Origin: Pegea sp. RAD2-039
Taxonomy: Eukaryota > Chordata > Thaliacea > Salpida > Salpidae
Assembly: GCA_034620365.1 (NCBI GenBank)
Contig: JAQGEQ010000345.1
Coordinates: 496,001-560,000, forward strand
Length of the DNA stretch: 64,000 nt
Reading direction: 5' to 3'
The position numbers and the translations under genes were made by a program. Below the pieces are notes generated by a model. That model had not been told where the DNA came from, ran no database searches, and was given only the letters and a program-made list of their open reading frames with translations. Shown here one piece after another: positions 30,891 through 34,837 of the stretch; the stretch's first letter is position 1, and every line of letters begins with the position of its first letter.

Positions 30891-33800
30891 ATGGAGAAGC
30901 CAATAGGTTGTGGTTCATTTGGTGTTGTTTGGTAAGTTTTCTATTATTAAGATTAGGCCTGGAGGTTTGAATAAATTGTTTAAGGTCTTGTAAAAAGATA
31001 TTATCTATTTATTATTTGAATATGCTGAACTTTTTTTTATAAAATTATTTTAATTTGTAGAAAAAAATAACTTAAAATAAAGACAAATAGTTTAAGTACC
31101 TGAAAGTAGTGACAAATTATTAAACCTTTTAGTAATAGTATTTTCTAACAATTTTTTTACTTTTCATATTTACTGATTTTTTTTATTTTAAATTTTTAAG
31201 ATACTTTTTAAATGATTCAATATTTTTAATTAGGAAAGTCAAACATCCGGCCAATCCCGAGAAAATGGTCGCATTAAAAAAAGTTTCAGCGGCATTTGAT
31301 TCTTTACCTTCAGCTATCAGTATTATTAGAGAGACAAAAATTCTTCAATTTAATGATCATGAAAATGTAAGTATCTTACAAACTACTTTAAATTATTTAT
31401 CAACTGAATAACAGATTTGTTTTTGTTTTTAGCTACTGTCTCTTTTGGATATTATGATGTTTGAAAACACTCAAAGGCAAAGAAATGAATTGTAAAAATA
31501 AGTTATTATTTACCATAATTATAAAAAGTTAATTTAAATTTGTAACTTGGAAATCAGATCAAATATAAACTAAATTAAATCGGAGATTTCAAACTTTTTT
31601 TGTTGAAAGCCATTTTTGTCTATTGTAACTTCGTGTCAGAATTGTATTTTGTAGTTTTATAATTTTATAAAACATAATCAATTTTTTTTTAATTTTTTCA
31701 AAATTCAGATTTTGGATGAGTTTAAAAGATTAATTAGTTTAAATTTACTTTGTTAAATATAAAAATAACCAAGTAAAAATTCGCGATTATTTTAGAAACT
31801 TAAACCGAAACTGCTTCTTTAAAAAAAGACTTTCTATTTTTCATATTTTAGATTCATAATTTTACCCTTGATGCAGCTTGATCTACATGAAGCAATCCAG
31901 ACTAACTTCATCACTAAAGAACACGTTAGCCTGTGCACATATCAAATCTTAAGAGGTTTAAAGTACTTGCATAGTGCTGACGTGATTCATCGAGACTTAA
32001 AACCAGGAAATATCCTCATCAATAATGATTGTTTATTAAAAATATCAGATTTTGGACTTTCTAGGAAAGTTGTGGTTTATGATAGAAAAGTGAAAATGAA
32101 TACTGAAGTCTGCACACCAAATTATAAGTTCGATATTCAAATTGTACTTTATTTTTTCCACTAATTTTGTTACTTCTAGAGCGCCAGAATTGTGTTGTAA
32201 CGCTCATTTTTATGATACGCAAATTGATATATGGAGTGTTGGTTGTACTGTTGTAGAAATGTTGACCAAAAAATTTCTCTTTAATTGTACATCAGAAATT
32301 GACCAGGTTTTTAAATTTGATCATTTTAATAATAAAATCATCAAATTGTTCTTTTCAGATTGATGCAATGTTTAAACTTGTTGAATTTGAAAACCAACTT
32401 CATCCAGTGAAGCTTTCTTGTAATTTATCTCAATTAAACACTGAACAACGAAACTTGTGTTTAAAAGCAGTCTCTGATGGAATATCACCACAATCGAATT
32501 TTGCATTTCTAAACGATGTCTGGATAGATGACGTCACAACTGAATTCCTCTCATTCTTACTCGTCTGGAATCCAGTTAGAGTCTTTTTATATTTCTTCTA
32601 AGAAGCCATCTTAATCTGTAATCATCTTCTGTATCTAGAGACCCTGTTTAAGTCCCTTTTTTAATCATTATCTTCATCTGTAAAACCGCTAGTCCACGTA
32701 ACTTCTCATGCAAACTTTGACTAGTGGTCGAAGGTCTTTTAATCGCCCTGTCTCCTTATAAAGCATCAAATAGTTTCATTAAAAAACTGAGAAACCTTTT
32801 CAAGCGTTTCGCATAAAATATTTTAAACTTGTCGCGTTTAAAAGCTCTAAAAATTGTTTTAATTAAATTCATTAAATAGATAAATTAAAAATCTTTTATC
32901 TGTATAACAAATGACACTTTGTATCTTTCTTCTCGAGAATAATTTCAAAGTTTAAAAGTCCTAAGATGCAAAGCTCTTAATGATGTTGAGATAAAAAAAT
33001 TAAAAAAAACTCAAAAGTTGAAAGTGGTTGAAGTTACTTGCTTCTCATTTGGTGATATACTTATTATTATTTTTAGAATTATCGTTTATCAGCTGATACA
33101 GCGTTACGGCATCGTTTCATTGATAATGGTAAACGACAATACCATAGCAACTTATGTGGTTGCTGTGGTAAGAGACCACAAGATCAGGACATTAGGTTCG
33201 ATTTTGAACCAGCGTCCCAAAGAAAATTTGAGTTGGACGAAACCAAGTTAAATTCAATTCATGAGATTCGAAGTAGTCACGTGACTTCTGTATTTCAATC
33301 ATTTTATGAAAACTGTTTCTAGATGAGATTCAGAAGATGATGAATCAAAAAATTGCTGAAAATGGCTACAAGGTGATACTGAACCCAGGTTGTGAAGCTT
33401 ATCAGAAGTTCCAGTCAGTTGAAGTAGAAAATGCTGATGATGAAATTGTTTCTTCATCTTCTAAGTAATCTCTTAATTCATCTTTCTAGTCTTTAAAATC
33501 GGATTTTGGTTTGCAGAACAAATGGTAAGGACTCTATTAAGTTGATGTTGGAGGAAATTATAGCAGAAGAGGAAGCAGATCAAATCTTAAGTTTATGTCA
33601 AACCATGAACCCAATTAATCAGCAAGATCCTGATTTGAGTTTAAGGACTGAGATTTATTCAGATCTCATTTCCATAAATCAACAGCAACAAATGAATCAG
33701 CAAATTTTGATGAATCAACAAAATCCGAATCAATTTTTAATGAATCAGCAAAATCCGAATCAATTTTTAATGAATCAACAAAAACAGAATCAATTTTTAA

Positions 33801-34837
33801 TGAATCAGCAAAATCCGAATCAATTTTTAATGAATCAGCAAAATCCGAATCAAGTTTTAATGAATCAACAAAAACAGAATCAAATTTTGATGAATCAACA
33901 AAAACAGAATCAAGTTTTAATGAATCAACAAAATCAGAATCAATTTTTGATAAATCAGCAAAATCAGAACCAATTTTTAATAAATCAACAAAAACCGAAT
34001 CAAGTTTTAATGAATCAACAGAATCAGAATCAAGTTTTAATGAATCAGCAAGAACAAAATCAATTTTTAATGAATCAGCAAGAACGGAATCAATTTTTAA
34101 TGAATCAGCAAAAACAAAATCAATTTTTAATGAATCAGCAAAAACGGAATCAATTTTTAATGAGTCAGCAGAATCAGAATCAAGTTTTAATAAATCAGCA
34201 AAAACGGAATCAATTTTTAATTAGTCAGCAGAATCAGAATCAAGTTTTAATAAATCAGCAGAATCAGAACCAATTTTTAATGAATGAACAAAAACAGAAT
34301 CAAATTTTGATGAATCAACAAAAACAGAATCAAATTTTGATGAATCAACAAAAACAGAATCAATTTTTAATGAATCAACAAAAACAGAATCAATTTTTGA
34401 TACATCAACAAAAACCGAATCAAGTTTTAATGAATCAACAAAATCAGAATCAAGTTTTAATGAATCAGCAAAATCAGAATCAAGTTTTAATGAATCAACA
34501 AGAACAGAATCAATTTTTAATGAATCAGCAGAAAAGGAATCAATTTTTAATGAGTCAACAGAATCAGAATCAATTTTTGATGAATCAACAAAAACAGAAT
34601 CAAGTTCTAATAAATCAGCAAACTCCGAATCAATTTTTAATGAGTCAGCAGAATCAGAATCAAGTTTTAATAAATCAGCAAGAACAGAATCAATTTTTAA
34701 TGAGTCAGCAGAATCAGAATCAAGTTTTAATAAATCAACGAAAACGGAATCAATTTTCAATCAATCAACAAAAACGGAATCAATTTTTAATGAGTCAGCA
34801 AAAACCGAATCAATTTTTAATAAATCAAAAAAAATAG
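30891..34837 (+). CDS. NLK: Nemo-like kinase (NLK) with a long Q/N-rich decapeptide-repeat tail (9 exons, 836 aa)
   Basis: Predicted proline-directed Ser/Thr kinase of the NLK branch of MAPK-like kinases, which act on Wnt/TCF and related transcription factors. Exons: 30891-30931, 31234-31366, 31433-31491, 31852-32127, 32180-32306, 32359-32574, 33077-33272, 33323-33464, 33517-34837. An in-frame TAA at 30885-30887 supports the start. Kinase features are GCGSFG at residues 7-12, VALKK with Lys29, [31 protein letters not shown] (Asp126), DFG (Asp144), APE and DIWSVGC. NLK-specific sequence after the kinase ([23 protein letters not shown], then [15 protein letters not shown]) confirms the subfamily. 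The long His/Ala-rich N-terminus of vertebrate NLK is absent. From about residue 456 to the end the protein is a decapeptide repeat. AATAAA lies at 35087-35092. Confidence 0.9.

Follow-up and report, generated by a model that had tools for sequence, protein, structure and literature searches.

Results

The kinase gene and its proposed last exon

The 64-kb stretch of DNA analysed here (hereafter the window; G+C 27.7%) comes from an assembly of 105.7 Mb in 387 contigs, and its plus strand holds a protein kinase gene that can be read as one continuous frame of 836 aa in nine exons, from an ATG at 30891 to a TAG at 34837. All eight introns of this model are GT-AG. Exon 1 (30891..30931) starts with the ATG at the glycine loop, as does its counterpart in the paralog L025; exon 2 (31234..31366), with the VALKK lysine, and exon 3 (31433..31491) are matched in L025 by exons of the same length. 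The activation segment MNTEV lies in exon 4 (31852..32127) and APE in exon 5 (32180..32306), followed by exon 6 (32359..32574; 219 nt in L025). Exon 7 (33077..33272) holds the end of the kinase domain and the beginning of a C-terminal extension of the Nemo-like kinase (NLK) type, the remainder of which is found in exon 8 (33323..33464; 127 nt in L025). Other Pfam matches in the window were an astacin-type protease (55796-56143, minus strand), a GH31 glycosidase (11324-11752, plus strand) and a RING finger (3219-3536, minus strand), and Rfam at gathering thresholds gave no match in the window.

Exon 9 would be reached through a proposed intron 8 of 52 nt (33465..33516, GTAATC...TTTGCAG). Its pre-array part (33517..33712) has 65 full codons, matches only itself when the whole genome is searched at E up to 10, and leads into 37 clean, in-frame array units of 30 bp each (33713..34822) and the start of unit 38 (34823..34837), where a TAG at 34835-34837 ends the frame. 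The original prediction had placed a last exon at 33517-34837 in phase with the kinase, and this is confirmed: joining 33464 to 33517 splits a codon as AA|A and keeps the frame. Inside the proposed intron, at 33466-33468, a TAA stands in frame with exon 8. Intron 8 belongs to a short class together with introns 4, 5 and 7 (52, 52 and 50 nt). On a matrix built from the 14 reference introns themselves (7 from the window gene and 7 from L025), its donor scores 5.0, among reference introns at 3.2-8.2 (n=14) and in the top 14% of 2799 GTs; its acceptor scores 5.8, which ranks within the best 4% of 3140 AGs yet below every reference intron (n=14, minimum 7.7).

A divergent NLK-type kinase and its paralogs

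The Pfam Pkinase domain matches the window gene with an E of 8.2e-55, and the catalytic motifs K, HRD, DFG and APE are all found in the translation. The best 60 of 2655 solved-structure sequences were almost all p38 alpha, with no NLK among the matches listed. BLASTP against a human NLK sequence gave 36% identity over 392 columns, and the alignment extends past the kinase domain, covering the CC/DFEP/LNP extension as far as residue 379 of the 388 in the comparison. The conserved NLK C-terminus that had been assigned to the last exon is therefore present, but it is placed in exons 7-8 and not in exon 9. Within the kinase domain the identity is 41% to NLK, 38% to ERK and 37% to p38, and NLK is the nearest of nine other sequences compared, the gene's own paralog aside. 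A small tree, with one NLK sequence and partial sequences for the other kinases (p38, ERK, JNK, ERK5-like, CDK-like), joins the window gene with NLK on a long branch (0.826 FastTree, 70 UFBoot). NLK has a higher identity to ERK (50%) and p38 (45%) than to the window gene.

Excerpts of a review (PMC12062777) describe NLK as having a TQE activation motif (Thr-298) and an AHQ-rich N-terminal region. The window gene reads MNTEV and L025 MNTKV where NLK has MTQEV, and all four close paralogs carry NTK instead of TQE. The AHQ-rich region is absent from the model, since the ATG coincides with the glycine loop and is preceded, two codons away, by a TAA in the same frame, although further exons upstream may exist. 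Thus the kinase fold and the C-terminal extension uphold the original assignment to NLK, while the activation motif and the N-terminal region do not. A canonical NLK was also sought elsewhere in the genome: the sequence TQYYRAPE was found in none of the twelve loci re-examined out of at least 111 kinase matches, the twelve being labelled by eye as p38, ERK, JNK, ERK5-like, CDK-like and others. Given the change of TQE to NTE, the start at the glycine loop, the long branch and the greater proximity of NLK to ERK and p38, the window gene is, as judged from its sequence, a divergent NLK-type MAPK, short of a proven NLK. The contigs C265, C75, C160 and C21 are rich in kinase-like matches, each in a single open frame of about 300-460 codons, which are perhaps lineage expansions.

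Among at least 110 genome matches, four are close paralogs (L024, L025, L026 and L027), of which C148 carries one and C279 three; with the window gene this makes five NLK-type kinase copies found in the genome. The four represent a second NLK-type kinase that was copied recently, with about 97% identity where they align best, and three of them lie within about 45 kb. The window gene and L025 share eight exons in the same order, six of them of the same length. The dN/dS of the window kinase against three paralogs was 0.19, 0.18 and 0.17 at a dS of about 1.1-1.2, while these three compared with each other gave 0.04-0.05; L024 was left out of this table, and its exon 2 does match. The low values of 0.17-0.19 show that the kinase is kept by purifying selection.

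Anatomy of the array

Tandem Repeats Finder placed the array at 33701-34888, with a period of 30, 39.6 copies, 85% matches, 0% indels and a score of 1543, far beyond chance. In codon phase the 37 clean units are followed by unit 38 with its TAG and by the recognisable units 39-40, the pattern being gone from unit 41. The post-stop remainder of unit 38 and the decaying units (34838..34927) stay open in the same frame to a TAA in unit 41, about 30 codons past the TAG, as though the frame of the array formerly ended there. The stop-to-stop frame 33497-34837 is open over 446 codons, so the Q/N frame gives 446 aa against at most 204 aa in the other frames. From unit 1 to the TAG there are 374 residues (22% N and 36% Q) with a net charge of +21, built on the decapeptide pattern NQQxxNQ(F/V/I)L(M/I). 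A Q/N-rich in-frame array of roughly the predicted size is thus present, and the figures first given for it, 380 residues and about 38 copies, were right within a few.

Recent duplication of higher order has left no sign in the array: exact repeats of at least 70 nt were not found, and the identities at lags of 1-21 units all lie between 0.84 and 0.88. With units so well mixed, the open frame has survived much divergence. Eight AATAAA signals lie in and beside the array, from 33979 to 34909. A DNA match on C1 (C1:3685014 region, L003; 71% over 105 bases) was rejected as a relative of the array, being part of another long tandem repeat with a different unit.

A protein search with 120 array residues, in which 150 of 392 candidates were scored, returned at least 60 matches with E up to 0.001, and five of these are the window array itself. 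The six loci fetched represent four distinct arrays, and each of the four is open for more than 250 aa in two frames. They are tandem arrays of 15, 16 and 30 bp on C293 (L039/L040/L044), C101 (L038), C374 (L042) and C21 (L041), with an EPAED-repeat frame on C293 and a proline-rich PPLPSKPFPG frame among them. Tandem arrays with long open frames are accordingly easy to find here, and openness of such a frame is in itself weak evidence of coding.

The junction and the 3' region in the paralogs

Exons 7 to 9 and the introns between them can be aligned with the paralogs. At the position of AA|GTAATC in the window, all four read GAG TAA TC, which places the paralog stop codon inside the proposed intron-8 donor and aligns it with the in-frame TAA of the window (AAGTAATC versus GAGTAATC). 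The window acceptor TTTGCAG corresponds to TTTTCAA in all four, with CAA for CAG, and the next downstream AG in the paralogs has no pyrimidine tract, scoring -4.8 in L025. Because the TAA of the paralogs falls exactly at the donor, the main rival to a coding tail is a live one, namely that the kinase ends at TAA 33466-33468 like its paralogs, that the array is a non-coding minisatellite in or just beyond the 3'UTR, and that its open frame is a by-product of a 30-bp unit without stops by chance. We regard this as a possibility to be taken seriously, although not as the probable course of events.

Several observations are in line with a non-coding array. The post-stop sequence of the paralogs contains a 14-nt indel (L027), a 1-nt indel (L026, L027) and AATAAA signals, although three paralogs are nearly free of coding differences, with only 0.2% of their non-synonymous sites changed. 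In the paralogs this stretch therefore has the character of a 3'UTR. The DNA identity to the paralogs is 60% in intron 7, 66% in exon 8, 71% in intron 8 and just 48% in pre-array exon 9, the lowest value of the region, unlike a conserved coding exon beside an intron. The acceptor of intron 8 is the weakest of the gene, AATAAA recurs within the array, and all four of the other arrays have two long open frames. Against the non-coding reading stand the lack of any stop or indel in 37 units, a pre-array stretch that is open and in phase, and an intron length in the short class.

No array was found in the 900 nt after the last shared exon of the four paralogs, and C148 and C279 are not among the matches listed for the array. 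All four carry a single look-alike of 1.4 units at the site where the array starts, with a score of 41 compared to null maxima of 33-37 (four sets of 400 shuffles) and 33 (181 real window segments). This unit-like stretch includes an AATAAA and has a 2-nt gap against the array unit. The flank after the array has no similarity to that of L025 (score 34; null mean 31, maximum 45).

It was also considered, and rejected, that the paralogs themselves splice to a downstream exon. By eye, an in-phase E-rich open frame follows a nearby AG in three of the four (L024, L025 and L026); set against this are the AG score in L025, a frame in L026 that ends a few codons earlier and the deletion in L027, which brings in a stop. 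The paralog stop at the donor, the lack of an acceptor AG, the downstream indels and the lack of an array lead us to conclude that the tail, as far as these sequences tell, is specific to the window copy.

Evidence for and against translation of exon 9

The 65 pre-array codons are open in the right phase, a result also seen in 131 of 8510 frames that were sampled elsewhere than in the gene; under two Markov nulls such an open frame occurs in 1.3% and 0.3%, with the choice of acceptor allowing a few tries. The 22 distinct variants in units 1-37 comprise 16 non-synonymous and 6 synonymous changes and no stops, where 3.1 stops are expected from the local substitution spectrum. The probability of observing none is 0.008-0.009, a value favoured by picking the stretch before the first stop; it becomes 0.054 when unit 38 is included, 0.044 with unit 39 and 0.016 with unit 40, and 0.126 under a flat spectrum. 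It must be noted that the spectrum pools four pairs of the same paralogs, and the counts are not independent. All four C sites of the consensus unit would become a stop by a C-to-T change, and none of them was hit in 37 units.

Synonymous variants are in mild excess in units 1-37 (P 0.049; 0.012 with a flat spectrum), with P values of 0.01-0.09 over 37-39 units depending on the spectrum. An event-based test with the event types fixed gave no significant synonymous excess in the Q/N frame (16 versus 12.8, P 0.16), and its lowest P (0.0165) belonged to an antisense frame full of stops. The two largest paralog alignments with L024 have from 12 gap openings per 143 substitutions to 18 per 157. At about one indel per ten substitutions, 22 variants would be accompanied by some two indels, and the zero of the array is only mildly surprising. 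Taken together, support for translation of the tail is moderate, and exon 9 is probably translated.

Prion-like composition of the putative tail

With 58% Q+N over 374 residues, the array has the composition of a Q/N-rich low-complexity, prion-like domain. A PAPA-type score, computed with a threshold of 0.05 and with no FoldIndex step, had a mean of 0.086 and a maximum of 0.174. In codons 8-10 of the unit, seven of the eight distinct variants are still hydrophobic. The AlphaFold single-sequence model of exon 9 contains helices only and no strands, at low confidence (mean pLDDT 57.2, pTM 0.24). Among the open-access papers listed on NLK with prion-like, repeat or polyglutamine sequences, none was by its title or abstract start about an NLK that itself bears such a tail.

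Discussion

The explanation that we favour, by a modest degree of belief, is a coding tail specific to this copy, in which a former 3'UTR was captured by splicing past the old stop and the repeat was then expanded. A weak donor overlapping the ancestral-type stop (AA|GTAATC) would be spliced to an acceptor that is absent from the paralogs, and splicing past the TAA would bring former 3'UTR into the coding frame. A short element, which occurs once in the array-less paralogs alongside AATAAA signals, would have expanded to about 40 tandem 30-bp units, and these, having a length divisible by 3, would be read through as a decapeptide array. The predicted product is the kinase with a Q/N-rich, weakly basic, low-complexity tail of about 374 residues, while unspliced transcripts would yield a tail-less kinase. 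Splicing and translation of exon 9, a gain here as opposed to a loss in the paralogs, and any effect of the tail are what we infer from the observed anatomy and phase, the selection on the kinase, the homology of the junction and the lack of an array after the paralogs' last shared exon. It must be noted that the direction of change rests on one genome, which cannot polarise gain versus loss.

NLK is activated by homodimerisation and autophosphorylation, according to excerpts of the review cited above (PMC12062777). By analogy, the most likely effect of a translated tail on a kinase of this type would be increased self-association or an altered localisation, and one may speculate that a multivalent, sticky tail could raise the local kinase concentration. 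The further step, to a prion-like or condensate-forming domain that is under selection and clusters the kinase, we consider unlikely. The Q/N content, the PAPA-type scores, the retained hydrophobic positions and the mode of NLK activation would agree with it; constraint at the amino-acid level is not clear, the structural model is helical and of low confidence, and the array is absent from the paralogs. It is equally doubtful that a translated Q/N array in a new exon of 440 codons clusters the kinase while splicing or retention of the 52-nt intron switches the tail on and off.

Unlikely as well, finally, is a tail ancestral to the family, from which the paralogs lost the acceptor AG while the array contracted to about one unit: the junction is homologous, the paralogs still have the donor sequence as well as the unit-like stretch, the E-rich frame noted above is kept in three of them, and all four are recent copies of each other and count as one lineage, but the nearby AG scores poorly and the unit-like stretch has its 2-nt gap.

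The kinase domain and the C-terminal extension are shared with NLK (nemo, LIT-1), from which the window gene differs in having NTE (NTK in L025) for TQE, no region before the glycine loop and a Q/N tail past the usual C-terminus. Like the atypical MAPKs ERK3, ERK4, ERK7/8 and NLK, it is a MAPK relative with a long C-terminal tail, and excerpts of the same review present disordered, tail-like C-terminal regions as characteristic of that group (PMC12062777). The tails of ERK3/4 and ERK7/8 bear described interaction motifs, whereas the tail of the window gene is a minisatellite array. In-frame coding minisatellites have a unit length divisible by 3, as here, and arrays of 15 and 30 bp occur elsewhere in this genome; the window array differs in being joined to a kinase through a proposed splice junction over an old stop codon. 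Ksp1 and Cbk1 of yeast are kinases, and in them too a kinase is joined to an N/Q-rich region. Both appear in a list of prionogenic proteins seen in an excerpt of its source (PMC4727409). They belong to other kinase families, and the putative tail in the window is a regular tandem array of 10 residues.

The locus may be of interest as a possible case of exon birth and is unremarkable as an open-frame minisatellite, the prion-like role being putative. If the tail is not translated, the locus is a caution that a 30-bp minisatellite beside a gene in an AT-rich genome can offer a long open frame. If it is translated, the locus would clearly exemplify how splicing across an old stop can turn a 3'UTR into a coding exon, the array-less paralogs in the same genome would provide a before-and-after comparison, and it would be a natural test of whether a Q/N array has an effect on a type of kinase that is activated by dimerisation.
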